Origin: Micromonospora craterilacus
GTDB lineage: Bacteria > Actinomycetota > Actinomycetes > Mycobacteriales > Micromonosporaceae
Direction: 5' to 3'
Assembly (NCBI RefSeq): GCF_003236315.1
Contig: NZ_POTY01000003.1
Span: 1 to 64,000 of the forward strand
DNA: 64,000 nucleotides
A program made the translations under genes and the position numbers. Positions 8,612 through 32,566 of this stretch are shown here, piece after piece (the first letter of the stretch is position 1; every line of letters starts with the position of its first letter). The notes under the pieces were generated by a model. It searched no databases and was not told the origin of the DNA. It saw nothing but the letters and a program-made list of their open reading frames with translations.

Positions 8612-9892
8612 TCATCCGTCGCCGGCCGGCGACGGCTGCCCGCCGATGCGGTGGACGGTGACCCCCGGCCGGTCGGTCACGACGTGCCAGGGGTCGACCA
8701 CCACGGAGCCCGCCGCGAAGGGGTACCCGGTGAACTCGGGTTCCGGGCAGCCGATGAAGTAGGCGCGGGCGGCGGCGGCAGGCGGCCGGCCGATCAGATC
8801 CGCAGGCGTGGCGACGACCTCGGCCGTGGCGCCCGCGAAGTGGAGCATGGTCACCATGAGCGCCGAGGAGCTGCCGGTCTGCAGGTCCGTGCCCGGTTTG
8901 AAGGCGGTGCCCAACACCGTCATCGGGAGGGGGCCGGCGTACTCGGCGAATCGCCGGGCCAGCCACTCCACGTACGCCTGCCGGGTCCGCAGGACGCCGG
9001 TGAACAGGTCGGCCTCGCCGCCGTGCGCCCGGAACAGCCAGGAGAGCGCGATGTTGTCCCGCGGATGGCAGGGCCCGCCGTCGCCCATGCCTGGGCTGAG
9101 GTATGCCGCGCTGGTCAGGCGTTGGTCCCCGCTGCGGATGATCCGCAGGACGTCCCCGGCGTCCGCGCCGGTCTCGTGCGCCATCCACTGGACCAGGTTG
9201 GCGACGGTCACCTTGGCGCTGACGAACGTGTTGTAGACGACCTTGGCGAGTTCGGCGGTCTCGTACGAGACCTCGAACAGCGGTGCGTCGGCGAGGCTGG
9301 CGAGCACCGTCGACACGGTGCCGTGGCGGTAGGTTGCCGGGGCGCCGATCATGGTGAACTCCGGCCGGCTCAGGTCCTGCGCGACGCGTCCCATGCCGAC
9401 GAACTGTGGACAGTAGAGGATCGGGTGCGCGGTGGCGACCGGCAGGATCTGTGCGCGGATGGTCCCGGGCAGCACGGTGGACATCACGCCGATCTCGATC
9501 GGCCCGGGCGCGTGGGCGGCCACGTCGCTGACGGCACGCCGCAGCGCGGTGTAGTCGAAGTCCGCTCGGGAGTCCGGCAGCGGGGTGATGCCCTCGTACA
9601 TTGGGCGATGCGGTGTCTCCACCACCACGAAGACGCAGTCCGCTGCGGACAAAAGCTCGGGTAGCGGTGCGAACCGCAGGGGTACGGTGTCGTCCACCAA
9701 GTCGACGAGGGTGCCCTCACCGTCCGGTCCGCGTTCGTACCGGGACAGCGCGGCGGTGCGCATCCGGGCGTCGTCCCGGTCGTATCCGATGACCTGGTAG
9801 CCCCGTAGGGCGAGCGCCGCTGCGACCGGTAGACCGAGCTTGCCGAGCCCAACGACGCCGATCGTTACCGCCATAGCGTGCAACTTGACCAT
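8612..9892 (-). CDS. UDP-glucose/GDP-mannose 6-dehydrogenase family protein
   Basis: NAD-dependent nucleotide-sugar dehydrogenase that would oxidise C6 of an NDP-hexose to a uronic acid. The N-terminal Rossmann motif is GVVGLGKLGLP, and the catalytic Cys lies in GDGGPCHPRDNIAL, which matches the GGxCxPxD signature. A C-terminal UDP-binding region contains GTAFKPGTD. Full length is 426 aa; an internal ATG seven codons in (9874) begins directly at MAVTIGVVGLGK and may be the true start. It is divergent from the VOC-glycosyltransferase operon, and two dyads lie in the shared 105-bp intergenic region. In this context it most likely supplies a sugar acid for decoration of the product. Confidence 0.93.
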   Translation of the reverse strand: MVKLHAMAVTIGVVGLGKLGLPVAAALALRGYQVIGYDRDDARMRTAALSRYERGPDGEGTLVDLVDDTVPLRFAPLPELLSAADCVFVVVETPHRPMYEGITPLPDSRADFDYTALRRAVSDVAAHAPGPIEIGVMSTVLPGTIRAQILPVATAHPILYCPQFVGMGRVAQDLSRPEFTMIGAPATYRHGTVSTVLASLADAPLFEVSYETAELAKVVYNTFVSAKVTVANLVQWMAHETGADAGDVLRIIRSGDQRLTSAAYLSPGMGDGGPCHPRDNIALSWLFRAHGGEADLFTGVLRTRQAYVEWLARRFAEYAGPLPMTVLGTAFKPGTDLQTGSSSALMVTMLHFAGATAEVVATPADLIGRPPAAAARAYFIGCPEPEFTGYPFAAGSVVVDPWHVVTDRPGVTVHRIGGQPSPAGDG

Positions 9893-11921: not shown

Positions 11922-11934
11922 ACCGCCCACGACC

Positions 11935-18700: not shown

Positions 18701-21594
18701 GCGGTGTCCACTCCCGTCTCGGTGAGGAATCGCAGTGCCAGTGCCGCGCAGAGCTGGTCACATGCCGCAGCGGCCGTCGCGATGTCCGGATCGGCGGCGC
18801 CGTGCGGACGCGACAGCTGGTCGAGGCTCTCGGTGTGGGCGGTGATGTCGACGACCGCCGGCTCGACCCGTTGCCCGCCGGGCTGGTCCGCCCCGGCCGG
18901 AGGCTCGATCCAGATGCGGCGCCGGCGCAGCGGGCGAGCGGGGAGTGGACGGCGGGCCGGTGGTGCGGGTCGCAGTAGCGCCGGTCGGTCCACGTTGACG
19001 CCGGCGGTCCACAGCCGTGCCGCCGTGGTCGCCAGCGACGCCCGTACCGCCCGGGTGTCGCCCTCCGGCCCGGAGGGTGGCAGCACGCTGTGCACGACGT
19101 GCGCCGGCGTACGGTGCGGGTGCCGCAGCGCCAGCGCGCCCAGCGCCGCGCCCGGGCCGACCTCCACGAGCACCGCGTCGTCGAGTCGCAGCGCCTGCCC
19201 CAGCGCGGCGTCGAACCGGACCGGCTCCCGCAACTGCCGTACCCAGTAGTCGATGTTGCTCAGGTCGTCCGCCGATGCTGGTCCGCCAGCTATTCCGGAG
19301 ATCACCGTGATTCCGGCGGCCCGGCGGGTCGTGAGGGCCACCTCCTTGCGGTAGTCCGCGAGGATGCCGTCCACCGCGGGCGAGTGGTACGCCCGGTTGA
19401 CGGGTAGGCGGTGGGTGGTGACGCCCGCTCGCCGCAGCCGATTGGCCAGCGCCGTCACGGCCGCCACCGGACCGGAGACCACGCACTGGTCCGCGGCGTT
19501 GACGGCGGTGACCGTCAGGCCCTGTCCGGGCAGATCGTGGAGGCGGCTGGGGGAACTGGCGACCGCCAGCATCGCGCCGGGCGGCAGCTGCGCCGACAGT
19601 CGGCCACGGGCCGACACGAGACGCAGCGCCTCCGGCAGATCGAACACGCCGGCGACGGTGGCTGCGGCGTACTCACCCAGGCTGTGTCCGAGCACGAGGG
19701 ACGGCTCGATCCCCCAGCCGCGCAACGTCTGCGCGAGCGCGTACTCGACCGCGAACAGCGCGGGCTGCGCGATGGTCGGATCGTCGCCGCCCGCACCTCT
19801 CAACGCGGCCCACAGGTCGACGCCGCATGGCAGCAGGGCGGCGGCGCACGTACGCAGGTGGTGGGCGAGGGCCGGTTCGTCCTCGGCCAGGTCGGCGAGA
19901 GCCGCCGGCAGGGCGCCCTGGCCGGGAAACAGGAACACCACGGGCCGGTCGGAGATCGCGACCGCCTCGGTCCGCCGGTCAGGCAGCAGCTGACGCAGGT
20001 CGCGGTTCGGTGGGGCGGTGTCGAGCGCCGCGGCGGTGGCGTCGGCGGTCTCGGCGACGACCGCGGCGCGGTGCGTGTAGGCGCGCTGCCCGGCCGCGGT
20101 GATCGTCAGTTGCGCCAGCGCGGTGCGCTCTGGTGGCGGGTAGTCGGGCTGGCGTAGCCGCGCGGCGACTCGTCCCCGCGCCTCGGCGAGGGCATCGGCG
20201 TCGCAGGCGGACAGCAGCAACGGTTGCCAGCGCCGCCGTGCTGGCTCCGCAGCCGGTGTCGGGGCCTGCTGCACGACGAGGTGGGCGTTGGTGCCGCCGA
20301 TCCCAAAGGCACTCACCCCTGCCCGGCGAGGCCCGTCGGGCTGCCGCCAGGCGGTGGTGGTGGGGTTCAAGCGGAACGGGGTCTCCGCCAGCCCGAGGCT
20401 GCGGTTGGCCGGCAGGCAGTGCAGGCTGGCCGGCAGGAGCCCGTGCTCGACCGCCAGAATCGTCTTGATCAGACCGGCCACGCCGGCTGCCGCGTCGAGG
20501 TGTCCGATGTTCGGCTTGACCGAGCCTATGGCGCAGTACTGGCGTCGGCCGGTGGTTTCCCGGAAGGCTCTGGTGAGGGCTCTGATCTCGACGGCGTCGC
20601 CGAGCGGTGTGCCGGTGCCGTGCGCCTCGACGTACCCGATGGCGTCGGCGGCGAGGCCGGCGACGGCCTGGGCCTCCGCGATGACGGCGGTCTGTCCGTC
20701 GGCCCCGGGTGCCGTGTAGCCGGACTTCGCCGCGCCGTCGTTGTTCACCGCCGACCCGACGACGAGGGCGTGGACGTGGTCACCGTCGCGGCGGGCGTCG
20801 GAGAGCCGTTTGAGCAGGACGACACCGGCACCGCTACCACCCACCGTGCCGGCCGCGTCGGCGCCGAAGGCACGGCACCGGCCGTCCGGGGAGTAGATGC
20901 CGTCCTCCCGGTAGACGTAGCCCTGGCGGGCCGGGACCTGGAGCGACACGCCACCGGCCAGCGCGAGGTCGCATTCCCCGGCCTGCAGTGCCTGCACGGC
21001 GAGGTGCACCGCGACCAGGGAGGACGAACAGGCGGTCCCCACCGCGATGCTGGGCCCGGTGAGGCCGAGCTTGTAGGAGACCGTCGACGGCAGGAAGTCC
21101 TTGTCGTTGTGGATCAGCAGCGGGAAGCCACCGACCTGGTCGAGCAGCCGACCGTGCGGTAGCAGGTTCCGGATCAGGTACGCGCTGAGTCCGGCGCTGA
21201 GGTACACCCCGACCGGGCGGTCGAGGGTGGCGGGGTCGTATCCCGCCGTGTCGAACGCATCCCACGCCACCTCGAGGCAGATCCGGTGCTGTGGGTCCAT
21301 GAGCTCGGCTTCCCGGGGCGTGAATCCGAAGAACTCGGCGTCGAAGAGGTCGTCACCCTCGAGCACCCCTTCGGCACCGACGAATCGCGGGTCGCGGGCA
21401 CGTCGCGGTTCGGTCCCACGCGCGATCGCGTCGTCCGGTGTCCACCTGGTGATGCTCTCGATGCCGGCGCAGAGGTTCGCCCAGTAGGTGCCGATGTCGG
21501 GTGCTCCCGGAAACCGGCCGGCCATGGAGACCACCGCCACCGGTTCGGCGCCGGCCGGGTCGTCAGCGGCCGGTCGGCTCGGCGTCGTCGTCAT
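15769..21594 (-). CDS. Type I PKS module, KS-AT-MT-KR-ACP
   Basis: Modular polyketide synthase of 1941 aa. KS has GTACSSSL near 190, EAHGTGTPLGD and NIGHLDAAAG. AT has GHSLGEYAAA near 635 and AYHS at the specificity site, which favours malonyl-CoA. A C-methyltransferase has VLEVGAGAGRL near 1111 and GLDVVHATPD. KR has GGLGGIGL near 1550 and keeps SSS and Tyr, although the usual Asn of YxxxN reads His. ACP has LGGDSLVAL near 1883. There is no dehydratase, enoyl reductase or thioesterase. I chose ATG at 21594 because GGAGGTG lies just upstream; the open frame to 21711 has no such site. It overlaps the NRPS by 32 nt. Expected chemistry: a malonate unit, alpha-C-methylated and reduced to a beta-hydroxyl. 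Confidence 0.95.
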   Translation of the reverse strand: MTTTPSRPAADDPAGAEPVAVVSMAGRFPGAPDIGTYWANLCAGIESITRWTPDDAIARGTEPRRARDPRFVGAEGVLEGDDLFDAEFFGFTPREAELMDPQHRICLEVAWDAFDTAGYDPATLDRPVGVYLSAGLSAYLIRNLLPHGRLLDQVGGFPLLIHNDKDFLPSTVSYKLGLTGPSIAVGTACSSSLVAVHLAVQALQAGECDLALAGGVSLQVPARQGYVYREDGIYSPDGRCRAFGADAAGTVGGSGAGVVLLKRLSDARRDGDHVHALVVGSAVNNDGAAKSGYTAPGADGQTAVIAEAQAVAGLAADAIGYVEAHGTGTPLGDAVEIRALTRAFRETTGRRQYCAIGSVKPNIGHLDAAAGVAGLIKTILAVEHGLLPASLHCLPANRSLGLAETPFRLNPTTTAWRQPDGPRRAGVSAFGIGGTNAHLVVQQAPTPAAEPARRRWQPLLLSACDADALAEARGRVAARLRQPDYPPPERTALAQLTITAAGQRAYTHRAAVVAETADATAAALDTAPPNRDLRQLLPDRRTEAVAISDRPVVFLFPGQGALPAALADLAEDEPALAHHLRTCAAALLPCGVDLWAALRGAGGDDPTIAQPALFAVEYALAQTLRGWGIEPSLVLGHSLGEYAAATVAGVFDLPEALRLVSARGRLSAQLPPGAMLAVASSPSRLHDLPGQGLTVTAVNAADQCVVSGPVAAVTALANRLRRAGVTTHRLPVNRAYHSPAVDGILADYRKEVALTTRRAAGITVISGIAGGPASADDLSNIDYWVRQLREPVRFDAALGQALRLDDAVLVEVGPGAALGALALRHPHRTPAHVVHSVLPPSGPEGDTRAVRASLATTAARLWTAGVNVDRPALLRPAPPARRPLPARPLRRRRIWIEPPAGADQPGGQRVEPAVVDITAHTESLDQLSRPHGAADPDIATAAAACDQLCAALALRFLTETGVDTAAGARHRLADLDARLRPLPAYRRLVSYLLDILAEDAVLVRAGDEVVFAERAADPDPDLLAQRLVAGFPAYRGVVELVRHCVRHYRDALREPGAALAVLYPEGRGDFLQRVLGQAGDQRPADDVDRQIQALTRLTDHLTAGHERPMRVLEVGAGAGRLTRQLVTALGSRADYQATDISPMFVAHLRREAERGRAPIRVGLFDVTRDHVAQGYPSGGYDLVVGLDVVHATPDVPDTLRRLTRLLAPGGVLGLVETTATHRWLSMVWGLSEGWWSFADRLRDRTPLLDHDGWRTAVNALPGHRGVVLPEAAAGGDRGDAALILVQAVAGEHQSPPTGLPAALPARQPDMADWCYTPTWRRAPMPARSAVPGTCLLFAAGPLGDRVGEELSARGCQVTVVRPTPGRSTPSSPAANHGDVSVEPGDDEAVRRILASVRPDLVVHAWLADLPVGPAAETSLRDQEYGLHHLLAIARGLGETAAGAVRLSVVTRAAQDVVGGDLANPGQATVYAVTKVVPRELPWVRCDSIDLPEGGDPDRDARHVVGELVADQSRPAVAYRGGRRWLPGFEPARLPEPDRFGDALRPGGVYLVVGGLGGIGLSLAASLASLPATVVLTRRERFPAPEEWTAWLRAHPEDDPTALSIRRLRRMQEAGGQVDIAQVDVTDRAGMRSVVERVVTRHGPITGVIHAAGVPDFGGMIQRRTRDDTVTAAAAKIEGTLSLVAALGDQRPEFVLLSSSIGTVLHHLKFGEVGYLAGHEFLNAYAAHRADDPTAPPGVLAVAWTDWLEAGMWAAAQRRLAGRYAPSSPTALRPDSDILHGITAAEGTEIFRRVLTHRPAPTVIISTQPLDELLAVHAAYTPQAHVALLETMVPVPGARRGPEQPDRHPAPETRTEQVLADLWSELLGFDRLGIDDHFFDELGGDSLVALRMLARVREATGVTLPVAQFFGAPTIRTLAARLDGAQRPEPEDNLAGDDDVLI

Positions 21595-24500
21595 CGGCTT
21601 CACCTCCGCGACGTCTGAGGGCGGCCCGGCGTGCGGCCGCGCGGGCCCGTCCCCGGCCGGCGGCAGCGTCGGACGGCCGGTGAGCGGGTGCGGCGTTGCC
21701 GGCGGCGGCATGCTCGGTGCGGCCCGATCCTTGCAGCCGGTCCGCGAGCGCGGCGATGGTCGGCCACTGCAACAGGTCGACCACCTGCAGGTCGCCGTCG
21801 ATCGCGGCGCGCAACTGACCGTAAAGCTTGAGCAGCAGCAGGGAGTTGCCCCCGAGGTCGAAGAAGCCGTCGTGCACGCCGACGTCCGGCCGGTCCAGGA
21901 CGGAGCACCAGACGCGGGCGATGGTCCGCTCCAACTCGGAACGGGGCGGCACGGCGGTGGTTCGGGCGGGTGCGACGCCGGCGGCGTGCTCGGCGAGCCG
22001 GCGCCGATCCAGTTTGCCGTTGTCCGTGCGGGGCAGCCGGTCCAGGGTCGACCAGGCGGTCGGGGTCATCACCGGGGGCAGCCGTTGCCGCAGGTAGGCC
22101 GCCAGCTCGCCAGGTTCGGGCGGCACGGGACCGGGGACGGTGAACGCAACGAGCCGCTCGTGTGGCGCGGCGGTGTGCACCACCGCGACGTCTCGGACCG
22201 CCGGGTGGTCGCGCAGGACTCGCTCGATCTCCTCGAGTTCGATCCGCACACCCCGCACCTTGATCTGACGGTCCAGCCGGCCGAGGAACCAGATCGTGCC
22301 GGTCCTCCCACGCCGCGCCAGGTCACCGGTCCGGTACAGCCGGTCCCCCGTCGCCGGCCCGAGGTGGTCCGGCACGAACAGCTCGGCGGTGAGCGCGGGA
22401 CGGTGCAGGTAACCCCGGGCCAGCGGCGGGCCACCGACGAGCAGGGTGCCGCGCATGCCGTCGGGCACCGGATGTCCGTCGGTGTCGACAAGCCAGATCC
22501 GCGCCCCGGCGACCTCACTTCCGATCGCGGGGGGCCCGTCGCCGTCGCCCACCATGCCGCTGGTGACGTACGTGGTCGCCTCGGACGGTCCGTAGAGGTT
22601 GCGGACGGTCAGGTCCGGCAGGTGGTGACGCAGCCGGGAGACGAGCTCACGGGGCAACGGCTCGCCGGCCAGGTTGGCGCACCGGAGCCCGGCCGGCAGC
22701 GCGTCGGCGTCGATGAGTGCGTCGAGCACCGAGGGCACCGTGTTAACCAGGGTTGCCTGCGGGGCGGCCGGGTGCGGCGGGAGTGCCTGCGGGCGGTCGA
22801 CCAGGATAACCGCGCCACCGGCAACGAGCGGGGCGAACAGTTCGAAGATCGACAGGTCGAAGCCGACGGAGGTGAGGGCAACGAGGCCGGCGAGCGCGTC
22901 GCGGCCGAACTCCCCCGTCGCCCAGCGCAGGAAGTTGACGGCTCCTGCCTGGGTGATCGCCACACCTTTGGGTAGGCCGGTGGAGCCGGAGGTGAACAGG
23001 ACGTACGCCAGGTTGGCCGGGTCGGTCGGCACCCGCGGCCGGCGGCGCGGCCGACCGCGCGCGACGGTGTCGCCGGCGTCGATGAGCAGGGTCGGACCGC
23101 GGTGACCGGCCTGCGCCGCCAGTGCGGTGGTGGTGACCAACAGCGTCGCCCGGGCCTGCGTCAGCATCAGCCGTATCCGGTGAGCCGGCAGGTCGGGATC
23201 CAGCGGCAGGAAGGCGGCACCGGCTTTGACCACGGCAAGAAGGGTGGCGAGGAGGTCCGGGGTGCGTGGCAGGTACACCCCGACCACCTGCTCCGGTGCG
23301 ATGCCACGAGCCCGCAGCTCGTGTGCGAGCTGGTTCGCGCGGCGATCGAGGGCGGCATAGGTCACCTGTTCGTGGTGACCGTAGACGGCGACGGAGTCGG
23401 GTTGCCGGTCGGCTGTCTGTTCGACGAGGCGGGCGAGGCCGTCTGGCGCGCCGCTGGACTCGATCCGTCGGCGGTACGGCGCGGCCGTGCTTCCGGACAC
23501 CGCGAGGGCCCCGATCGGGCGCTGCGGATCGGCCATGCCCGCCCGCAGCAACTCGCCGACGTGCTGGGCAAAGGTTTCCAGCGTGTCGGCGCGGCACTCG
23601 GCCGCGTCGGCTTCGAAGGTCAGTGCCACCCGGTCGGCCGTGGCGGTGACGGTGAGGCTGAGGTGGTATTTCGCGGCCGGGGTCGGCGGTGGCAGCGACG
23701 TGGTGACCACGCCGGGCAGCCGGGGTGCGGACGGTTCGGTCTGGTAGGTGAGCAGCACCTGGAACAGCGGGGTGTGCCGTGGCGATCGTGGTGGGCCGAC
23801 CACGTCGACGATGGTCTCGAAGGGGGTGTGCCGGTGCTCCACGGCGTCCAGCAGCGTGTCGCGGCACTGGCGGACGAGAGCGTCGAGAGTGGTGGCGGGG
23901 GTGGGTCGCAGGCGTAGCGGCAGCGGGTTGAGCCGGAGCCCGATGTGGGCCAGGTCGGTAGGGGTTTCGCGGAGGCTGACCGGGGTGCCGATGACAAGGT
24001 CGTGGTGGCCGGTGTAGCGGTGGATCGTGGCCGCGAGCCCGGCCAGCAGGGCCATGGCCATGGTGGCGGATCGGTGGCGGGCGAAGCGGCGGAGGTGGTC
24101 CACCTCGTCGGAGCCGAGGATGGTGGTGTACGTGACAGCGGCCGGTGTCCGGGGCCGGCCGGTGGGTGCGGCGTCGGGTGGCCAGATCGAGACGGGAGTC
24201 GGCGGGCCGGACATCTGCCGCCGCCAGAACGTGAGATCGTCCGCCGGTCGGTCATGGTCGTCCGGCGGGTGGACCGGCGCGTCGTCGTCAGTGTCGGAGC
24301 CACCCCGGCCGCGGTCCTCCAGTGTTGCGGGCGGGGGTCGTCCCGCGGCCAGTGCGGCGCTCAGTGAGGTCAGGTCGGCGCTGAGAGGGGCCAGGCTCGC
24401 CCCGTCGAACACGATGTGATGTGTCGAGAAGACCAGGACATGCTCGTCGCGGCGGACGCGCAGCAGGGTCCAGCGGGTGACCGGGCCGGCGGCGAGGTCG

Positions 24501-24835
24501 ATCGGGCGGCGGGCGATGCCCCGCACGACGGCGGGAACCTGCGCGGCGGGCAGTTCGACCAGTGCCATCGGATCAATCGCTCGGCGGTCTACCCGTCGCC
24601 ACAACTCGCCGTCGCGCTCGACGTAGCGGGAGCGCAGTGCCGGGTGCTTGCGCATCAGGGCGACGACCGTCAGACGGAGGGTCGCCAGGTTGAGCAACCC
24701 GTCGATGCGGATCGGCAGGCACACGTGGTATGCCGGGTCGTCCGGGGCGATCCGGTGCAGCAGCCAGAGCCGCCGTTCGGCCGGCGTGACGGCGAGGTCG
24801 TCGGGATCGTCCGGCCGGTACGGCGATCCACCCAC
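21563..24835 (-). CDS. Single-module NRPS, C-A-T
   Basis: A 1090-aa synthetase. C domain with intact HHIVFDG near residue 140; A domain with LFTSGSTGLPKGVAIT near 613 and YRTGDLARR, NGKLDRR; T domain with DLGGNSLLLL near 993. Reading specificity residues by eye against GrsA gives D-L-F-N-N-A-L-T-Y, which resembles Ala codes, so alanine is a tentative prediction. The 3' end overlaps the PKS start by 32 nt, indicating translational coupling, and the pair would add one amino acid then one methylated ketide. A dyad operator lies 33 nt upstream of the start, between it and the ArsR2 gene. Basic, low-complexity tail after the T domain (GRGRARAAARRAALRRR) may be a docking region. Confidence 0.95.
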   Translation of the reverse strand: MGGSPYRPDDPDDLAVTPAERRLWLLHRIAPDDPAYHVCLPIRIDGLLNLATLRLTVVALMRKHPALRSRYVERDGELWRRVDRRAIDPMALVELPAAQVPAVVRGIARRPIDLAAGPVTRWTLLRVRRDEHVLVFSTHHIVFDGASLAPLSADLTSLSAALAAGRPPPATLEDRGRGGSDTDDDAPVHPPDDHDRPADDLTFWRRQMSGPPTPVSIWPPDAAPTGRPRTPAAVTYTTILGSDEVDHLRRFARHRSATMAMALLAGLAATIHRYTGHHDLVIGTPVSLRETPTDLAHIGLRLNPLPLRLRPTPATTLDALVRQCRDTLLDAVEHRHTPFETIVDVVGPPRSPRHTPLFQVLLTYQTEPSAPRLPGVVTTSLPPPTPAAKYHLSLTVTATADRVALTFEADAAECRADTLETFAQHVGELLRAGMADPQRPIGALAVSGSTAAPYRRRIESSGAPDGLARLVEQTADRQPDSVAVYGHHEQVTYAALDRRANQLAHELRARGIAPEQVVGVYLPRTPDLLATLLAVVKAGAAFLPLDPDLPAHRIRLMLTQARATLLVTTTALAAQAGHRGPTLLIDAGDTVARGRPRRRPRVPTDPANLAYVLFTSGSTGLPKGVAITQAGAVNFLRWATGEFGRDALAGLVALTSVGFDLSIFELFAPLVAGGAVILVDRPQALPPHPAAPQATLVNTVPSVLDALIDADALPAGLRCANLAGEPLPRELVSRLRHHLPDLTVRNLYGPSEATTYVTSGMVGDGDGPPAIGSEVAGARIWLVDTDGHPVPDGMRGTLLVGGPPLARGYLHRPALTAELFVPDHLGPATGDRLYRTGDLARRGRTGTIWFLGRLDRQIKVRGVRIELEEIERVLRDHPAVRDVAVVHTAAPHERLVAFTVPGPVPPEPGELAAYLRQRLPPVMTPTAWSTLDRLPRTDNGKLDRRRLAEHAAGVAPARTTAVPPRSELERTIARVWCSVLDRPDVGVHDGFFDLGGNSLLLLKLYGQLRAAIDGDLQVVDLLQWPTIAALADRLQGSGRTEHAAAGNAAPAHRPSDAAAGRGRARAAARRAALRRRGGEADDDDAEPTGR

Positions 24836-24926: not shown

Positions 24927-25277
24927 TCAGAGCGCGCGGCAGGTGGTGATCGCCGCCTCGTTCTCGCTGAGGAACGTCCGAGCCAGCCTGAGGAACTCCT
25001 GCGCCCTCTCGTCGGCGACCCGGTAGATGAGCCGGCGCCCGCGTCGCTCCACGGTGAGGAATCCACACCAGACCAGACAGTGCAGGTGTTCTGACGCGCG
25101 CGACTGCGGGATGCTCAGCCGCTGGAACAGTTCCGACTGCGACAGCTCGCCATGCTCGATGATCAGCTCGATGATGCTCAGCCGCCGGGCCTCGCCGAGC
25201 GTGCGGAACACGCGGGCGAGCAGCTCCCGTTCCGGTAGTGGCGTGTTGTCGGGGGCGACAGTGGCCGGCCGTCCCAT
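24927..25277 (-). CDS. ArsR/SmtB repressor, CmtR-like (ArsR2)
   Basis: A 116-aa winged-helix repressor. The DNA-binding helix reads LSIPQSRASEHLHCLVWC, with Cys67 and Cys71 in C-x3-C and Cys113 near the C-terminus (AAITTCRAL). These three positions have nearly the same spacing as the Cd/Pb ligands Cys57, Cys61 and Cys102 of CmtR. It is a paralog of ArsR1 (8177-8557), which likewise stands immediately before an NRPS gene. ATG at 25277 is preceded by GGGAGG. It lies between the DUF169 gene and the NRPS-PKS pair on the same strand. I infer that it represses the genes with TCCGG-N4-CCGGA sites. Confidence 0.93.
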   Translation of the reverse strand: MGRPATVAPDNTPLPERELLARVFRTLGEARRLSIIELIIEHGELSQSELFQRLSIPQSRASEHLHCLVWCGFLTVERRGRRLIYRVADERAQEFLRLARTFLSENEAAITTCRAL

Positions 25278-25388: not shown

Positions 25389-26108
25389 TCACGATGCGGT
25401 GACCGCCGCCAGTCGGCTCTGGTAGAAGCCGAGCATCTTGCCGTTGGCCTCGGCGGTGGACCTCAGGGCCGCGGTGAACGACTCGATCTGGTCACCGGGC
25501 ACGACGGCGAGCATCCGGTCGTCGGCGATGCTGGTGAAGGTCCGCATGCCGATGCAGCCGAACGAGAGGGTCGGCGTCGCGGAGCCGAGGGCCAACGGGA
25601 TCGCGGCGCAGGCCGGGCGTCCACCCACCCGGGCCGGGGTCGCCGCCCAACTCGCCGTGCCGATGGCCTCGTTGAACACCATCGCCTGCTTTGGGGTCAG
25701 CCACATCACCACCGCCTTCGGGGTGACGGGAAACGATCCCAGCGGCCCGTAGACGGCACCACCGGCGTTGCCGCCCACCGAGGGAATCTTGGCGCCCTCC
25801 TCAGCGCCCAGGTAGGACCATCCGCACATGGTTTCCACCAGGCCGCCGAGCTCCTGCATGACCTCGGCGGGCATATCGAAGCCCATGACCATGGAACCCA
25901 CCGGGCAGTTGTAGTGCTGCGCTGCGGCCGCGAAGAACACCTCCTGCTCGCCCCGCCGCCAGAAGGCGCAGGCCGAGGGGGACACAGCGGTGGTCGTCTC
26001 GACCCCGTCAGGGACCTGCTCCACGAACGCGACCGCGACCGGCGGCTGCTCAAGGTCGAGCAGCGCGCTGATCTCCGTGGCGGCGTCCCGGTACTGCGGC
26101 ATGGTCAT
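25389..26108 (-). CDS. DUF169 family protein
   Basis: A 239-aa soluble protein with the DUF169 pattern: LEQPPVAVAFVE near the N-terminus, SACAFWRRGE, HYNCPVGSMVMGF and FGCIGMRTFT. Six cysteines, including those in SACAFW, YNCPVG, ETMCGW, RPACAA and FGCIG, make metal or cofactor binding plausible, but the family has no defined reaction that I know. Two in-frame ATGs at 26108 and 26102 compete; neither has a strong Shine-Dalgarno. It precedes ArsR2 on the same strand with a 111-nt gap and follows the terminator-like hairpin at 26198. Confidence 0.85.
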   Translation of the reverse strand: MTMPQYRDAATEISALLDLEQPPVAVAFVEQVPDGVETTTAVSPSACAFWRRGEQEVFFAAAAQHYNCPVGSMVMGFDMPAEVMQELGGLVETMCGWSYLGAEEGAKIPSVGGNAGGAVYGPLGSFPVTPKAVVMWLTPKQAMVFNEAIGTASWAATPARVGGRPACAAIPLALGSATPTLSFGCIGMRTFTSIADDRMLAVVPGDQIESFTAALRSTAEANGKMLGFYQSRLAAVTAS

Positions 26109-26250: not shown

Positions 26251-26403
26251 CTAAAGCACCACCGACTCGGACGTCGAGTAGTCGACGGACGCGATTTCCG
26301 GGGGACACTCGCTGTCCACCGGCTCCACGTATCCGCCGAACACACGCGCGAGCTCCTCGTCGGTCATTTCGAGCGCCGAGAGCTCCGCTTCAACCTGGGC
26401 CAT
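26251..26403 (-). CDS. 50-aa double-glycine-type peptide, candidate RiPP precursor
   Basis: Encodes a 50-residue acidic peptide. Residues 1-24 end MTDEELARVFGG, very like the helical leader and GG cleavage site of Nif11/bacteriocin-type precursors. The following 26 residues begin YVEPVDSECPPEIASVDYST and end ESVVL, with one Cys, five Ser, one Thr and two Tyr, so they offer modification sites. The start ATG at 26403 is strongly supported by GGAGGTGAGGTT directly upstream, and it is 34 nt downstream of a membrane-peptide gene. A CCAEP-tail radical SAM gene under an almost identical promoter lies 1 kb away. No C39 peptidase/exporter is visible. Precursor status is inference; it could instead be a small regulator. 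Confidence 0.65.
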   Translation of the reverse strand: MAQVEAELSALEMTDEELARVFGGYVEPVDSECPPEIASVDYSTSESVVL

Positions 26404-26437
26404 AACCTCACCTCCTTCCGGCCGCCTGCCACGGCTG

Positions 26438-26647
26438 TCATCGCAGCCGTGCGAACTGGACGACCAGCCCGGCCAGGACCAGGAACAGCAGCAGCAGAAC
26501 AAGCCACAGTGCCCGGAACACGGCGGGCCGGACTCCGCGCGGAAAAATCTCAGGACGCTGCGCCGCCGGCGGTGGGACGGCCTCGGCCATCGACGCCAGG
26601 CGGGTTGATTGCTCGGGCAGCACTCCCACCTCCCGTGCCATCGCCAC
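26438..26647 (-). CDS. Small one-helix membrane protein
   Basis: A 69-aa protein with a Pro-rich N-terminal half (AVPPPAAQRPEIFPRG) and one strong hydrophobic segment, ALWLVLLLLFLVLAGLVV, followed by QFARLR. Start is GTG at 26647 (VAMAREV), with an ATG two codons later as alternative. It is the first gene of a two-gene unit with the 50-aa peptide and lies 42 nt from dyad operator B2. Not recognised as a family. It could anchor, export or protect against the peptide. Confidence 0.6.
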   Translation of the reverse strand: MAMAREVGVLPEQSTRLASMAEAVPPPAAQRPEIFPRGVRPAVFRALWLVLLLLFLVLAGLVVQFARLR

Positions 26648-26688
26648 AATGACGTTCTTCGTTGCGGGCGCTCACCGATACGGAACCT

Positions 26689-26702
26689 TGCGGAAAACCG
26701 GA
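26689..26702. promoter_or_regulatory. Dyad operator B2 within the membrane-peptide promoter
   Basis: TGCGG-AAAA-CCGGA, a 5-4-5 repeat with one mismatch. On the minus strand a consensus -35 TTGACA ends just before it and TTCCGT follows at 17-nt spacing, so the dyad fills the promoter spacer. The ankyrin gene starts 113 nt to the right, so this could also serve the divergent direction. Confidence 0.6.
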
Positions 26703-26814
26703 TGTCAACACCCGGCCGGACAGGCCTGCTCGCCTCCACGTGCAACTGGCATCCGGTTCTCCCGATACCTACGATGTCCGAAAGGTACGTGTGCACAACC
26801 ACCGGGAGCACATC

Positions 26815-27390
26815 GTGTCCGAAAGCCAGGACAAGTCCGCGCCGCTGTTCACCGCCGTCGCGAATGGATCAATCGAGGCGGCCACGGCGGCACTCGATGC
26901 GGGTGCGATCGTCGATACGCGGGACGACGACGGCTGGTCGGCGTTGGATCGCGCCGCCGGCCGCGGCGACACGCCGATGGTGCAGCTACTGCTCGACCAC
27001 GGTGCCGACCCGTTCGGCACCGGGCCGGAGCAGCGCACGGCGTACGACATCGCCGTCGCGGCGGGCCGGTTGGACACTGCCCGGGCGCTGCGATCGGTGC
27101 AGGTGCGCCTCGACCCGACCAGCGCCGACGATCACCTGTGGCGGCCGTACTGCAAGGCGTATCAGCTGGGCCAGCTACGTGTCGCCGCCGGATGGGACGC
27201 GGCCGCCCGGGCGGACGAGTTGACCGACGACAGCGTTGTCTTCCTGCACGACGACTACACGGTGACCCGCGCCATGTGGCCGGGCGAGGATGTCGTGTTC
27301 GATGCGGTAACCCCTGATTGGATCACCTTCTGCCAGCAGGTGCTGACGTTCGCCGTCCCGGACGAGTTGGACCTGGTCCCGAAACCCTAG
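26815..27390 (+). CDS. Ankyrin-repeat protein
   Basis: A 191-aa soluble protein. Residues about 10-100 hold ankyrin repeats: APLFTAVANGSIEAATAALD, WSALDRAAGRGDTPMVQLLLDHGADP and TAYDIAVAAGRLDTARAL. The C-terminal half (LTDDSVVFLHDDYTVTRAM to the end) is not recognised. I chose GTG at 26815 because GGGAG precedes it by a good distance; the frame is open back to ATG 26662, but that part has no Shine-Dalgarno and crosses operator B2. Its stop overlaps the radical SAM stop by 3 bp on the opposite strand. Ankyrin repeats usually mediate protein binding, so it may be an adaptor for the peptide system. Confidence 0.82.
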   Translation: MSESQDKSAPLFTAVANGSIEAATAALDAGAIVDTRDDDGWSALDRAAGRGDTPMVQLLLDHGADPFGTGPEQRTAYDIAVAAGRLDTARALRSVQVRLDPTSADDHLWRPYCKAYQLGQLRVAAGWDAAARADELTDDSVVFLHDDYTVTRAMWPGEDVVFDAVTPDWITFCQQVLTFAVPDELDLVPKP

Positions 27391-28856
27391 AGCAGGGGTT
27401 CCAGCTGGCTGCGAACCGGCTCCGCACAGCAGAACCAGGGCTCGGTCAGGTAGGGAACTGCCACCGAGGTGCTCGCTGTCGGTTCCAACGCGGCCAGCTT
27501 CTCCGCCTCCGGTCCACCCAGCAGCTGCGCAGCATGCTGCCGTACCCGATCGAAGACCTCGACTCGGCTCCACCCGACGCGTGCGGCATCCTCGGCGACG
27601 GCGAAGACGGCACTTTGCAGCTCGTCCATCAGCGGATCCGGATGGGTCCAGCGGTAACACAGTCCCTCGGGGTCGAACGTTCCGAGGTGCTCCTGCATGT
27701 CGGTACGGTCGAGCAGCCGTGACCCCGCGGGGACCAGTAGGCGGATGGCGTACTGCACCGCAGCCACCGACTCCACCAGACCCAGGTTGCAGACCGCCGT
27801 CAGGAAGTCCGCGTAGCTTTCCCGCGACGTCCACGGGGTGAACGCCACGAACGTCGGGTTGACCGCGATCCCGACCTCTCTCAACGTGCGAAGGGCGACG
27901 ACGAGATCCTTCGTGGTGTGTCGCTTGTCGAACACCTCGAGAACGGTGTCGTCGAAACTTTCCACCGCGGTGGTGACGAGCACGCAGCCGGTGTCGCGCA
28001 GCAGCGGCATCATCTGCGGATGGGCGACCAGGTGTTCTACCTTGATCGTCACGTCGTAGCTGAGGGCCGGGAACCGCTCGTGCAGGCGGGTGACAATCGC
28101 GGCGGCGTGCGTCGGCCCATTGAGAAAATCCGGATCGCCGAACGTGATGTGCTCGGCGCCCGTCTCGACCAGGGCGGCCACGTCCGCATCGACGACGTCA
28201 CGCTGAACGACGCGGAAGCGTCCGCCGTACACCGGCACGATCGGACAATGTCGGCAGACGTGCTTGCAGCCGCGGCTGGCCTCGGTGTAGCCGACAGTCC
28301 GTCGGGTGCCGTCGGGCAGTTGCAGCGAGGCGTACGACGTCAGTGGTGGCAGTCCCGCCCGGTCGGGCTGCCGGAACGTCTGTCGGTCCAGGGAGATCAG
28401 CGGCAGCGTCTGCCGTACCGGCGGGTGAGGTAAGGCCGGCGGCGATTGCGAAAGTTCGGACACAAGGGCGCTCAGCGGCGCCTCGAACTCGCCGCCGAGG
28501 ACGGTGTCGACGCCGAGCGCACGCAGGAGGCTCTCGTTGACCGGCGCGTAGAGGCCGTACGCGCACAGGTGTGCCGTGGGGTTGAGGACGCGCACCCGTG
28601 GGATGAGCTCGACCGCCATCCGGGTGGCCGTGTGCATCGGTAGATAGAAGGCGACCACCTCGGCAGCCTTGACGGACGCCTCGGGGAACGACTCAACAGC
28701 GAGATCGACTGCCGTCACCTCGGCGCCTGCAGCGCGCAACCAGGCCGCCGGTGAGGCAAGCCCGAAGGGCTGATGGCCGAGTTCGTACGTCGACAGCAGT
28801 AGCACGGGTATCGGTCGGCGGGCGCGTTCCCTGTCCTGCGTGGCAGCAGTACTCAC
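27387..28856 (-). CDS. CCAEP-tail radical SAM protein
   Basis: A 489-aa radical SAM enzyme. Residues about 17-135 form a Rossmann-like domain in the position of a B12-binding domain but without DxHxxG. The Fe-S motif is C197-x3-C201-x2-C204 (RGCKHVCRHCP). The C-terminus reads WFCCAEP with Cys476 and Cys477 (codons TGC TGT at 27431-27426), 12 residues before the end. I recall a family named for this CUAEP/CCAEP tail, in which some members carry selenocysteine. The start is GTG at 28856 with GAGAGGA upstream. Its promoter (TTGACT, then dyad B3) almost duplicates that of the membrane-peptide gene, so they are probably co-regulated. The substrate is unknown; the 50-aa peptide is the obvious local candidate. 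Confidence 0.88.
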   Translation of the reverse strand: MSTAATQDRERARRPIPVLLLSTYELGHQPFGLASPAAWLRAAGAEVTAVDLAVESFPEASVKAAEVVAFYLPMHTATRMAVELIPRVRVLNPTAHLCAYGLYAPVNESLLRALGVDTVLGGEFEAPLSALVSELSQSPPALPHPPVRQTLPLISLDRQTFRQPDRAGLPPLTSYASLQLPDGTRRTVGYTEASRGCKHVCRHCPIVPVYGGRFRVVQRDVVDADVAALVETGAEHITFGDPDFLNGPTHAAAIVTRLHERFPALSYDVTIKVEHLVAHPQMMPLLRDTGCVLVTTAVESFDDTVLEVFDKRHTTKDLVVALRTLREVGIAVNPTFVAFTPWTSRESYADFLTAVCNLGLVESVAAVQYAIRLLVPAGSRLLDRTDMQEHLGTFDPEGLCYRWTHPDPLMDELQSAVFAVAEDAARVGWSRVEVFDRVRQHAAQLLGGPEAEKLAALEPTASTSVAVPYLTEPWFCCAEPVRSQLEPLL

Positions 28857-28931: not shown

Positions 28932-30131
28932 TCACGCAGGGGCGGCACAGGTGGACGAGGCGGTGGCACCGGCCAGCCGTTGCTTGAAGAAGGCGAGGAT
29001 CTCGGGCAGGGCGGCGGGCAGGACGTCGACGTGTCCCTTGCCGGGAAAGAGCTTTGCGGTGATCATCGCGCTCGCGGCGCAATATCGCTGGCGCAACTCG
29101 CGCGCATTTCGCAGGGGGATCGTGTCGTCGACCTCACCGTGCACAAGCATGATCGGCACGTCCGGCGCCGTGCCGCCGAGCTCGTTCTTCGCCAGCAGCG
29201 CCCGGACCTCGGGTGCATCCAGGACAGCGCCGGTGCCGTAGGTGTCCGTCCTACCGTCGGCGTACTCCCCTAGAATCTCGTCTACGCACTTGCCGGGGAT
29301 CTGGTCGAGGGCGGTGCTGCCGGCCGCCGTCAGTCCGTCCATCGCGACCTGCGGATACGCCGTCCGGTAGCCGTGCGCAGTCATCAGGACGTAGCCGAAG
29401 TAGGGACCACCGGCGAGCTGAGCGTCGAGTTCGTCGAGACCCGCCGGGACGGCGACTCCCGCCGCTCCGACCAGACGGATGTCGGGTGCGTACTTGGCGT
29501 GGATCTCGGCCGCGTACAGCGCGGCCGCGCCCCCCTGCGACTGCCCGAGAATGAAAGCGCTCGCACCGGTCGCGTCGAACAGTTGGCTGCCGGCGCGGAT
29601 CGAATCCAGGACGTTGCGCGCCGATGCCTCGTTGACCATGAAGGGGTGTTCGCCCGGTGTCCCCAGCCCCTCGTAGTCCGAGGCGACGAAGATCGCACCC
29701 TCCGCGATGGCCCGCCGCACCAGGGCAAGTGAGTCTCCAGCACCTCGGGCGTAGCCACGCGACGGGGCACAACTGTCGTCCAGACCGACCGTCCCGTGGG
29801 CCCAGGCCAGAATCGACCGCGGACCGGCCGACGCCGGTTCCTCCGGCTGGAACGCCACGCCGGACACGGCGACCAGGTCACCACTCGTCGCCGTGGACCA
29901 GTAGAGAATGGCGAACCCGGTCAGCCCGTCCGGGCTCGGCACCGGTCTGGCCCAGATGAGCTGCCCCGGTTTGGCGTCGGCCGGCCGGGTGGGCGGCTGG
30001 TAGAAGGCGTCACCGGCCGGCCCGGGGGTCACCAGCGGGGCGGCGGTGCCGGCCTCGGGTGGGCTCGTGCCGTCGCAGCCGGCTCCGGCGAGCACACCGA
30101 GGATCGTGAGAAGTGCGAGGGCGCGCCGCAT
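28932..30131 (-). CDS. Secreted lipase/esterase (LIP family), lipoprotein
   Basis: Alpha/beta hydrolase of 399 aa of the secretory lipase type. Residues 1-20 (MRRALALLTILGVLAGAGC) form a lipoprotein-type signal ending in Cys. The nucleophile elbow is GQSQGG, the acid lies in HGEVDDTIPL, and the His in GKGHVDVLP. The oxyanion region is AWAHGTVGLDDSC. ATG at 30131 was chosen because it starts the signal peptide; the frame is open to 30302 but the extra part runs through the divergent promoter. It lies between the radical SAM gene and VOC-GT2. It may hydrolyse an external ester, or be an unrelated neighbour. Confidence 0.9.
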   Translation of the reverse strand: MRRALALLTILGVLAGAGCDGTSPPEAGTAAPLVTPGPAGDAFYQPPTRPADAKPGQLIWARPVPSPDGLTGFAILYWSTATSGDLVAVSGVAFQPEEPASAGPRSILAWAHGTVGLDDSCAPSRGYARGAGDSLALVRRAIAEGAIFVASDYEGLGTPGEHPFMVNEASARNVLDSIRAGSQLFDATGASAFILGQSQGGAAALYAAEIHAKYAPDIRLVGAAGVAVPAGLDELDAQLAGGPYFGYVLMTAHGYRTAYPQVAMDGLTAAGSTALDQIPGKCVDEILGEYADGRTDTYGTGAVLDAPEVRALLAKNELGGTAPDVPIMLVHGEVDDTIPLRNARELRQRYCAASAMITAKLFPGKGHVDVLPAALPEILAFFKQRLAGATASSTCAAPA

Positions 30132-30234
30132 GCGACGCAGGCTACCAACCGGGCGGAGCAGATGACATGGATCGTCGTGGGGCGCCGTGCCGGCTCTGGC
30201 GGCTGAACCGCGACAGGCGGTAGCGTCTGTCAGA

Positions 30235-30248
30235 TCCGCGATTCCGGA
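30235..30248. promoter_or_regulatory. Dyad operator B4 upstream of VOC-GT2
   Basis: TCCGC-GATT-CCGGA, a 5-4-5 repeat with one mismatch and matching flanking A/T. It is 41 nt before the ATG at 30289 and just downstream of a possible -10 (TAGCGT, 30221-30226). Same geometry as B1-B3. Confidence 0.5.
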
Positions 30249-30288
30249 TGCCAGGACGGCACCACCGTGACACTGAGGAGCGGACGCG

Positions 30289-31821
30289 ATGGGTGGCATC
30301 AACCGCGAACACGTCCGGTTGCACGGTGTCCCCTGTCTCCTGGTCGACCAGGTCGTCGAAGCCGCCGAGTACTACCGGGACCGGCTCGGGTTCACCCACG
30401 TCGAACTGCTCGAAGATCCCCCGGTCGCGGCGGTGGTCCGGCGAGGTTCCGCCGCGGTACTGCTGCAGGCCGTGACGCAGTCGGGCGACGTGTCGTTACG
30501 CCAGTTCGCGGAGCAGGCCTGGGACGCCCTGTTCGAGGTGGACGACATCGAGGCCCTCGCCACCGACCTACGTCGACGTCACGCTGACGTCCAGGTCGGA
30601 CTCGGTATCACCCCCGTGTCGAACCGCACCCTCGAAGTACGCGACAAGTGGGGCAACGTGCTTGCGTTCGCCGAACGCGCCGACCGCCGGCGGCTGAACG
30701 CACGCCGTATCGCCCGGGCAGCGGTACCGGCACCGGTGCGCAGATCCTGGGCGCAGGCCCGCCGCGACCGTGAGGATCGTCCACACCAGCGGGAGCTACA
30801 CCGTTTCTGCCGATCACTTCGCGGCTCCGACCCGTTCTACATGTACTTCACCCGTGGGCTGTTGCACTGGGTCTACCAGGCACAGCGGCACGTCCCGGCC
30901 GACGTCAACCTCGTTCTCCTCGGCTCCGACCTGCCCGACGCCGAAGTCGACTGGCTTCGGGCGAACGTCGACCGCCCACTGCACAACATCCGCCTCGGCG
31001 TCGATGACAACACGACCTGGGAGTTCCTCTTCAGCGCCAACGACCGTAACTTCGGCTGGCTCGACATCGACTGCTTCGTCCTCGCCCCGCAGCTGTTCAC
31101 CGAGATGGCGACGATCGCCGACGATGTCGCGGTCAACGGGATCTGGACCTACCCGGTGGCCGACGGGCTACCGATCGCCTGCACCCACTTCGCCTTCGTC
31201 AACCTCCAGGCGGCCCACGCGCTGCAACGAGGTGGAGCCGCGATGAGCCCGACGAACTACGACTGGAACGGCTCGAACATCTCTCTGATGCATCCCCGGA
31301 CCCATTGCCGGGTGCCCAGCCCCCGCCAGCGCCGGGAACTTCTGAAAGTGCTGCCGCCGGACGCGCACGGCCGACCTTGCCCACCCGGCGGCAGCCCCTT
31401 CTTCGACACGCTTGTCGCCTACCAGGTCAGCGCGTACGCCAACGGGTACCGAACCCACCCGGTACGGCCACTCGCGCACCGTACCGAGGACTCACTCGGC
31501 GAGACCGCGAACGGGAAACGGGTCTGGCAGCAGGACATGAGCCCGGAGGTCGTGCACGTTGGCGGCGTGAGCTACTACCAGCGCTACTTCCACTCACCGG
31601 CGCTGCGGGCGATGTATCTGGCCGCGGAGTACGCGATGCTGCGGGGCCTGGTCGACCGTCTGCCCGCGTCCTACGGCGGCCGCCTCGCCCGCATCACCAC
31701 GGGCCTCGCCCATCACCGGCTACGGCCGTCCGACGCCGTCGCGTTGGTCCACCACCACCTGACCGAGGACCGCGGCCTTCCGGGGCCCGCAGCCGACCAG
31801 GTCCTCGGCGGGAAGCCCTGA
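30289..31821 (+). CDS. VOC domain fused to a glycosyltransferase-like domain (VOC-GT2)
   Basis: A 510-aa paralog of VOC-GT1. Residues about 10-135 form the VOC part (CLLVDQVVEAAEYYRDRLGF, ending WGNVLAFAE). The remainder has RGLLHWVYQAQRHVP, NLVLLGSDLP, NFGWLDIDCFVL with a D-x-D, and HPRTHCRVPSPRQRR. The D-x-D suggests a nucleotide-sugar-dependent glycosyltransferase, but the domain is not one I can name. ATG at 30289 has GAGGAG upstream. It is a single-gene unit divergent from the lipase and carries operator B4. The two paralogs bracket the locus at 10 kb and 31 kb and share operator-bearing promoters, which places both in the pathway. Confidence 0.82.
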   Translation: MGGINREHVRLHGVPCLLVDQVVEAAEYYRDRLGFTHVELLEDPPVAAVVRRGSAAVLLQAVTQSGDVSLRQFAEQAWDALFEVDDIEALATDLRRRHADVQVGLGITPVSNRTLEVRDKWGNVLAFAERADRRRLNARRIARAAVPAPVRRSWAQARRDREDRPHQRELHRFCRSLRGSDPFYMYFTRGLLHWVYQAQRHVPADVNLVLLGSDLPDAEVDWLRANVDRPLHNIRLGVDDNTTWEFLFSANDRNFGWLDIDCFVLAPQLFTEMATIADDVAVNGIWTYPVADGLPIACTHFAFVNLQAAHALQRGGAAMSPTNYDWNGSNISLMHPRTHCRVPSPRQRRELLKVLPPDAHGRPCPPGGSPFFDTLVAYQVSAYANGYRTHPVRPLAHRTEDSLGETANGKRVWQQDMSPEVVHVGGVSYYQRYFHSPALRAMYLAAEYAMLRGLVDRLPASYGGRLARITTGLAHHRLRPSDAVALVHHHLTEDRGLPGPAADQVLGGKP

Positions 31822-31939: not shown

Positions 31940-32566
31940 GTGCGGACGTTACCTCTCCCCGAACTGAGCGAGGTCCAGAACGAGCTCGTCCGCCAGGCAT
32001 TCCTCCGTCTCCTGCACAGCGGGAATCCGGTTCCCGAGACGCAGCTGAATGTCGCGACGGCGGCCGGCCACGTTGACGTGCACCACGAACTTGACGCGCT
32101 GGTCGCCGCCGGACGCGTCCGGCGCGACGACAACTTGCGGGTGACCGGCGCCCTCGGGCTGACGCTGGAAACCACTCGGCATCGCCTCCTGCTCGCCGGA
32201 CGGACCTGGCACACCTGGTGTGCGATCGACGCCCTCGGCATCCTCGGCGCGCTCGACGCCTCGGGCAGCATCCATTCGACGTCGCCGCCGGACGGTCGCG
32301 TCGTCGAGATTCACTTCGAGCAGGGACGCCCTGCTCGGGGCGACCTCTCCGCCGTGGTCTACGTACCGACATACCGTCCGGGGGCATCCGTCGTGGCGAC
32401 GTGGTGCCCCAACGTCAACTTCTTCGAATCGTCGAGCGTGGCAGCGGTTTGGGCGTCCGGTGCCGGGGTGGACGGGGAGTGCCTCCCGCTCGTGGCCGCG
32501 TGTGACCTGGCCGCCACCCGCTGGCGAGAGCGGCTCACGCCGAGCGGATCCGCAATCACCGGGTGA
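31940..32566 (+). CDS. Alkylmercury lyase (MerB)-like protein
   Basis: A 208-aa protein with an N-terminal winged-helix-like part (residues 10-75) and a MerB catalytic part. Cys94 and Asp97 in WHTWCAIDALG and Cys156 in TWCPNVNFF correspond to the C96/D99/C159 triad of E. coli MerB, which cleaves the C-Hg bond. GTG at 31940 is supported by GGAGGT upstream. No mercuric reductase gene is in the window; a MerR regulator and a thioredoxin-like gene follow within 1.5 kb. It could act on organomercury or another organometal, or have drifted in function. Confidence 0.85.
   Translation: MRTLPLPELSEVQNELVRQAFLRLLHSGNPVPETQLNVATAAGHVDVHHELDALVAAGRVRRDDNLRVTGALGLTLETTRHRLLLAGRTWHTWCAIDALGILGALDASGSIHSTSPPDGRVVEIHFEQGRPARGDLSAVVYVPTYRPGASVVATWCPNVNFFESSSVAAVWASGAGVDGECLPLVAACDLAATRWRERLTPSGSAITG

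Follow-up and report, generated by a model that had tools for sequence, protein, structure and literature searches.

A candidate Gly-Gly-leader precursor peptide within a bleomycin-family assembly-line cluster of Micromonospora craterilacus

We analysed the first 64,000 nucleotides of contig NZ_POTY01000003.1 of Micromonospora craterilacus (this whole stretch is referred to as the window), which harbours a cluster of nonribosomal peptide synthetase (NRPS) and polyketide synthase (PKS) genes of the bleomycin-family line. Within this cluster, a minus-strand open reading frame (ORF) of 50 amino acids (aa) at positions 26251–26403 is predicted to encode a precursor peptide with a double-glycine (GG) leader. 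We propose that the cluster has its own processing exporter for this precursor, a PCAT (an ATP-binding cassette (ABC) exporter carrying a C39 peptidase domain), which would cut after the Gly-Gly pair and carry the product out of the cell; to this reading we assign a probability of about 0.7. Judged from the DNA, the ORF with its ribosome-binding site, the conserved leader, the divergent core and the synteny across three genera are secure, as is the presence in each genome of one C39 protein, with intact C39 residues, beside cluster NRPS genes.

The ORF, whose strand the original prediction left unstated, reads MAQVEAELSALEMTDEELARVFGG/YVEPVDSECPPEIASVDYSTSESVVL, that is, a 24-aa leader ending in Gly-Gly followed by a 26-aa core, and its stop codon occupies positions 26251–26253. 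The start codon is preceded by a near-perfect Shine-Dalgarno sequence (AAGGAGGTGAGGTT-ATG), in agreement with the excellent ribosome-binding site noted in the original prediction for this DNA. The codon-position GC content (0.70/0.40/0.84) resembles that of genes called elsewhere in the window, which is GC-rich. The core contains five Ser, one Thr, one Cys and two Tyr residues and carries a net charge of -6. No family cut-off was reached among Pfam and NCBIfam matches with E up to 1; the sub-threshold matches were Bacteriocin_IIc (13.4 bits, cut-off 27.1) and TIGR04149 (12 bits). Membership of the peptide in TIGR04149, a family of radical-SAM-modified ribosomally synthesized and post-translationally modified peptides (RiPPs; SAM, S-adenosylmethionine), was discarded at this score, the curated cut-off being 25.

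Orthologues were reached through the neighbouring radical SAM protein, with which a scan yielded 80 loci from 265 relatives, and the syntenic gap was then read. Rhizocola hellebori (Micromonosporaceae) and Goekera deserti (Geodermatophilaceae) encode radical SAM proteins that are 65% and 60% identical, respectively, to that of the window, and their loci retain ankyrin, glyoxalase-type, MerB, NRPS and PKS neighbours. In each of the two, a small hydrophobic protein and, after it, a GG peptide are encoded in the gap that lies downstream of the radical SAM and ankyrin genes; the peptide reads MIETLEMSESELAAVFGG/EPTIGNDTIEEPPCEEAMEM in Rhizocola (locus L003) and MDEKELEALELDDAELSTVYGG/MEAQARCAEAAYEEAMVM in Goekera (locus L004). 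For the latter, a GTG start (43 aa) was dropped in favour of the ATG at 12405, because the Shine-Dalgarno sequence fits that start. The sequence GGAGGTGAG stands before the start codon in all three orthologues.

Over 14 leader positions the three pairs share 10, 8 and 7 identical residues, and differing codons specify 6 of the 10, 4 of the 8 and 6 of the 7. The similarity of the full peptides was equalled by only 1, 0 and 0 of 20000 shuffles; the alignment scores of the cores alone were equalled by 4568, 3125 and 428 of 5000 shuffles and are thus not above chance. Because leader identities are high and core scores fall within the shuffles, the leader has been kept while the core was free to vary, which is the outcome that the original prediction had proposed to look for in orthologues. 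Only a single Cys, an acidic character (net charges of -6, -7 and -3) and perhaps the last six residues (SESVVL, EEAMEM and EEAMVM) are constant among the cores. The description of the core as rich in Ser, Cys and Tyr suits the window copy and fails for its orthologues, whose acidic cores have no Ser, at most one Tyr and one Cys each. The three-genus synteny, the conserved leader and the shuffle tests bear out the 50-residue ORF as genuine, and support the view that simple gene calling had overlooked a precursor of the leader/core type.

The leader pattern E-L-x-x-V-[FY]-G-G recurs in the three genera and has the form of the short GG leaders of C39/PCAT substrates. Such a leader was carried by only three of 1381 Shine-Dalgarno-started ORFs (25–90 aa) at 104 radical SAM loci, namely the two syntenic orthologues and one ORF directly after a C39 exporter. 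A peptide profile scored strongly in 3 of the 14 genomes with the radical SAM family, which are only the cluster-bearing ones; since it was built from the same three sequences, these self-scores prove nothing. Across 394 genomes of the class, the profile gave matches at E up to 0.05 in nine genomes, one of them the window's own. The other eight, at 16–18 bits, were provisionally put down to chance; six of them lie in frames of 196–1181 aa, the remaining two in frames of 95 and 150 aa. A BLAST-type search of 200 genomes of the family recovered the window's own copy only, and a pattern scan across 84,980 species returned no match.

Exactly one C39 peptidase match was found in each of the three cluster-bearing genomes; among 200 genomes of the family to which the window's genome belongs, 41 had any C39 domain, the window's genome and Rhizocola being counted in the 41. 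In Rhizocola the C39 protein (C7:164189-166447) comes immediately after an NRPS in the cluster's gene run, in Goekera (C48:140937-143159) it overlaps a cluster gene, likewise in one run with cluster NRPSs, and in the window's genome it adjoins an NRPS on contig C177. This contig also carries a gene matching the sugar-kinase/cytidylyltransferase of Rhizocola and, since the contig of the window begins within the cluster, C177 probably represents the cluster's other end. The Rhizocola protein is a full PCAT, with C39, ABC membrane and ATPase parts. The three PCATs are 61% identical to one another and all retain the C39 Cys, His and Asp residues, and that of the window's genome aligns over its full length with the PCAT1 and ComA structures. 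In the three scanned regions the precursor was the only convincing ORF combining a Shine-Dalgarno sequence with a GG leader, there being two poor matches on C177. A cognate C39 transporter is thus found in the cluster, the window's own copy lying on another contig, and would for this reason be the processing enzyme of the precursor. The conserved acidic leader would deliver the precursor to this PCAT, whose C39 domain would cut after Gly-Gly and release the 26-residue core for export; we regard translation, cleavage and export as likely.

The surrounding genes place the cluster in the bleomycin family. It comprises a single PKS with ketosynthase (KS), acyltransferase (AT), methyltransferase (MT), ketoreductase (KR) and acyl carrier (ACP) domains, an NRPS with two condensation-adenylation-thiolation (C-A-T) modules (CATCAT) and further NRPSs. 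Other parts are an A-T protein with a nitroreductase-type domain, MbtH, TauD (SyrP type), Asp-beta-hydroxylases, GT9 and PfkB/cytidylyltransferase. The domain pattern in the window and in Rhizocola fits that given for the bleomycin family in the excerpted text of PMC3777966, and the numbering of ORFs on the Alteromonas plasmid pAMDE1 follows gene order and the roles named in that excerpt. The pAMDE1 cluster, the product of which is itself deduced, was the sole comparator, and the large genes pair with it one-to-one. NRPS2 scored 1168 bits with the BlmX homologue, against 592 for its next match. The 2537-aa Rhizocola NRPS scored 1035 bits with its pAMDE1 counterpart (next match 620), the two-module 2481-aa NRPS 915 bits with the BlmIV homologue (next match 589) and the single PKS 375 bits with the single pAMDE1 PKS. 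Both the KS-AT-MT-KR-ACP module and a CATCAT NRPS with a family homologue as best match, the features by which we recognized the family, are therefore present. The smaller C-A-T NRPSs had no pAMDE1 counterpart of their own. Plasmid searches with the cluster's NRPS/PKS proteins or DNA gave only generic NRPSs as top matches, and no match to the glyoxalase-type protein was found among plasmids. At 1e-6, the DUF5990 proteins of the window and of pAMDE1 failed to match each other.

Before export, the core might additionally be modified, perhaps at its single Cys, by the radical SAM enzyme, a step that we advance tentatively. The window enzyme belongs to family NF040546 (625.5 bits, cut-off 500) and bears the C-[CU]-A-E-P tail of that family, with the ArsL model second at 291.9 bits, below its cut-off of 450. 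According to the excerpted text of PMC8552651, ArsL transfers the 3-amino-3-carboxypropyl group of SAM to As(III). A literature search with the word CUAEP found no paper. The protein shows B12-binding and radical SAM parts only, and its structure was modelled with a mean pLDDT of 86.5. In several family members (L009, L016, L030, L034 and others) the dyad before AEP reads CC, C-TGA, TGA-C or stop-stop, apparently Cys/Sec in all four arrangements.

The same enzyme family co-occurs with DUF169, ArsR, a PCAT and another GG peptide in an unrelated operon of Catenulispora rubra, the source of the third GG-leader ORF. There, a seven-gene run on one strand encodes, in order, radical SAM, DUF169, ArsR, ATP-grasp, pyridoxal phosphate (PLP) decarboxylase, PCAT and the GG peptide MAETTTVTELELAPVEESNEISEAELEDITGG/AYAPTCTNAVCCVNQ; radical SAM, DUF169 and ArsR also surround the peptide of the window. 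The Catenulispora PCAT is 46–48% identical to the other three, and its GG peptide scored 16.4 bits against TIGR04149 (cut-off 25). This peptide (L005, 12152–12295, plus strand), directly after the PCAT, has a 15-residue core with three Cys. The radical SAM enzyme was absent from 13 other genomes of the family to which this Catenulispora genome belongs.

Several observations weigh against the proposed precursor, exporter and enzyme acting together. The orthologues number only three. In Rhizocola and Goekera the PCAT lies 62–67 kb from the peptide, and in the window's genome, where the two are on separate contigs, they are linked by homology. As a rule, members of the radical SAM family are found with no peptide of this type, GG-leader ORFs giving three hits in 105 loci, and a C39 domain fell within the available flanks in only one of the 105. 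Moreover, the modelled enzyme is closest to AprD4, OxsB, TsrM and MgmA, mostly small-molecule enzymes, with no peptide-binding domain visible in the model, and general Pfam and NCBIfam searches of the protein gave no RiPP recognition element (RRE) or SPASM match.

In a rival reading, the product would be an unmodified, bacteriocin- or pheromone-like GG peptide secreted by the PCAT, with the small hydrophobic protein as its immunity factor or partner and the radical SAM enzyme making a building block for the NRPS/PKS line. Class II bacteriocins and pheromones usually come as a GG peptide with a small membrane protein and a PCAT. The 69-aa hydrophobic protein has one membrane helix, judged by eye, and is conserved in all three loci with 14 invariant columns. 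The full-length alignment of the PCAT with ComA, the rarity of peptides beside the radical SAM family and weak matches of the orthologues, including a pheromone model (15.6 bits, cut-off 85) and, for one orthologue, bacteriocin_sig (17.9 bits, cut-off 15.7), point the same way. Against this stand the acidic cores, unlike those of most bacteriocins, the failure to find a sensor kinase among the scanned neighbours, and the Catenulispora operon, in which a member of this enzyme family likewise stands with a GG peptide; we see an unmodified peptide as a credible option at well below even odds. An acidic peptide this short, with similar C-terminal ends and inside a small-molecule assembly line, could alternatively be a carrier or scaffold on which a small-molecule unit is built, the leader marking the conjugate for export, and peptide scaffolds are indeed known from pearlin pathways and amino-group carrier proteins. 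Yet the cluster proteins scanned include no peptide aminoacyl-ligase (LanB-type) and core similarity stays within chance, which makes such a role improbable. Comparably unlikely is a ribosomal/non-ribosomal hybrid, in which the core would be altered at its single Cys by the ArsL-like B12 radical SAM enzyme, joined covalently to a bleomycin-type metallo-glycopeptide and freed of its leader by the PCAT on export.

Two further explanations would deprive the peptide of importance. Its translation might merely control read-through of a hairpin into the NRPS genes by attenuation: a hairpin follows the stop codon in all three loci (z of -4.33, -1.86 and -4.80, two of the three far below shuffles) and a large NRPS gene comes next. 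Nevertheless, the amino acids of the leader are conserved through synonymous changes, the leader has a terminal GG for which a cognate C39 exporter is available, no U-tract follows the window hairpin as in a terminator, and no run of regulatory codons occurs, so that a purely regulatory frame seems very unlikely. A chance frame in GC-rich DNA, where long spurious frames are common, is hardly credible. The plus strand across 26251–26403 is also open, its translation lacking a recognisable product, but syntenic orthologues in two other genera with a conserved leader and Shine-Dalgarno sequence, and the shuffle results, speak against coincidence. We thus favour an exported GG-leader precursor.

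The features of the window are collected in Table 1. A 29-nt element upstream of the peptide operon is likely its promoter. Goekera keeps TTGACA and GGTTCCGT at similar spacing, and a search of the window's genome that tolerated up to three mismatches found a single copy of a 23-nt form of the element. The glyoxalase-type protein (30289–31821, plus strand) has a paralogue at 9998–11542 (plus strand), both of about 510 aa and 34% identical; the former has a bleomycin-resistance-type N-terminal part and a C-terminal part with a DID motif, perhaps a glycosyltransferase. Additionally, a 1275-aa frame at 11899–15726 (minus strand) has no Pfam match and an unusual codon-position GC content (0.90/0.53/0.76), and its coding strand is uncertain.

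Metal-related genes form a further group. Both ArsR proteins of the window have an invariant C-x3-C and a C-terminal Cys, present also in Rhizocola and Goekera, which we take to be the CmtR pattern, and the cluster may respond to a soft metal. No orthologue of the ArsR at 24927–25277 was found in Goekera. The MerB-like protein, an organomercurial-lyase-type enzyme inside an antibiotic cluster, scored 84.5 bits (cut-off 27) and retains Cys/Asp and the second Cys in the three clusters. A metal or organometal theme (MerB, CmtR-like ArsR, ArsL-like enzyme) was considered as the role of the peptide and left as background, being judged not general because MerB lies near 6 and DUF169 near 8 of 104 radical SAM loci (flanks of unequal length). 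Elsewhere, a Nonomuraea locus (L006, 10001–16632) combines the radical SAM protein with a methyltransferase, DUF169 and two MerB-like matches, and a Pseudonocardiales metagenome-assembled genome (L008, 3843–11367) has DUF169, radical SAM, an aminotransferase, a weak WelO5-like match, MerB and GCS2.

Table 1. Features of the window discussed in the text, with predicted roles
Feature	Position	Strand	Remarks
Candidate GG-leader precursor peptide, 50 aa	26251..26403	-	syntenic orthologues L003:12431-12547, L004:12405-12527
Leader MAQVEAELSALEMTDEELARVFGG, conserved	26332..26403	-	
Core YVEPVDSECPPEIASVDYSTSESVVL, variable, acidic, single Cys	26254..26331	-	
Ribosome-binding site AAGGAGGTGAGGTT; GGAGGTGAG common to all three orthologues	26404..26417	-	
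29-nt element TTGACA...GGTTCCGT, likely promoter	26680..26708	-	identical in Rhizocola, upstream of same operon
RNA hairpin just past precursor stop; 13-bp stem, 6-nt loop	26198..26229	-	
69-aa hydrophobic protein, directly upstream of peptide	26438..26647	-	no family
CCAEP-tail radical SAM protein (NF040546), next best ArsL	27387..28856	-	upstream of peptide
DUF169 protein, between peptide and ArsR in window only	25389..26108	-	also beside radical SAM family elsewhere
ArsR-family regulator, CmtR-type Cys triad	24927..25277	-	orthologue in Rhizocola
Second ArsR, Cys triad, closest solved relative CmtR (2jsc)	8177..8557	-	
MerB-like protein, Cys/Asp/Cys residues kept	31940..32566	+	
NRPS C-A-T	21563..24835	-	
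PKS KS-AT-MT-KR-ACP, bleomycin-type single module	15769..21711	-	
UDP-glucose/GDP-mannose dehydrogenase, conserved in three clusters	8612..9892	-	
NRPS C-A-T-C-A-T, best match BlmX homologue of plasmid pAMDE1	1760..8122	-	
AMP-binding domain with DIP2-like C-part, start of next NRPS; off contig start	2..1753	-	
Ankyrin-repeat protein, start uncertain; divergent from peptide operon, conserved in three	26662..27390	+	
Secretory-lipase-like hydrolase (PF03583), homologues in three clusters	28932..30302	-	
Ble/glyoxalase-type N-part with C-part lacking assignment, conserved in three	30289..31821	+	

Among known systems, Nif11-type precursors share the double-glycine-type end, and the original prediction had called the leader Nif11-like. 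This label was given up: with hits admitted up to E = 1, neither Pfam nor NCBIfam gave a match to a Nif11 model, which we take to be TIGR03798/PF07862 for the RiPP precursors, and Nif11 leaders are far longer than the 24 residues found here. Lipolanthines (microvionin) and goadvionins likewise combine a precursor with PKS/NRPS genes in one actinobacterial cluster; they are lanthipeptides made with Lan enzymes and a dedicated acyltransferase, and no Lan-type enzyme was found among the cluster proteins scanned with Pfam, which sets the present system apart. GG-leader bacteriocins and pheromones with PCAT/ComA show the same leader pattern and a full PCAT with intact C39 residues; unlike them, the window peptide has an acidic core, lies in a bleomycin-type line and falls below all family cut-offs. 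The window enzyme is a member of the CUAEP/CCAEP-tail radical SAM family (NF040546), most members of which have no GG peptide nearby; for this (seleno)protein family, two gene neighbourhoods unrelated to each other would now each offer a candidate peptide substrate.

Bleomycin-family lines (bleomycin, tallysomycin, zorbamycin and Alteromonas pAMDE1; PMC3777966, in excerpt) are among the best-studied NRPS/PKS systems and are alike with the present cluster in the single PKS, the CATCAT NRPS, the BlmIV-type NRPS and the tailoring genes. To these the present cluster adds the GG peptide, the small hydrophobic protein, the CCAEP radical SAM enzyme, two CmtR-like ArsR proteins, MerB, the ankyrin protein and a PCAT. 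The excerpted text of PMC3777966 describes pAMDE1 without a ribosomal peptide partner; its cluster has a cyclic-peptide ABC exporter in place of the PCAT, and a C39-domain protein lies elsewhere on the plasmid, about 60 kb from the cluster. By title or abstract start, no paper among the matches listed ties a bleomycin-family cluster to a precursor peptide. The conserved GG precursor and C39 exporter in three genera make it a testable proposition that the bleomycin class has a ribosomal component: because a precursor and a matching cutter-exporter are built into the cluster, bleomycin-type clusters of this kind may also make a ribosomal peptide.
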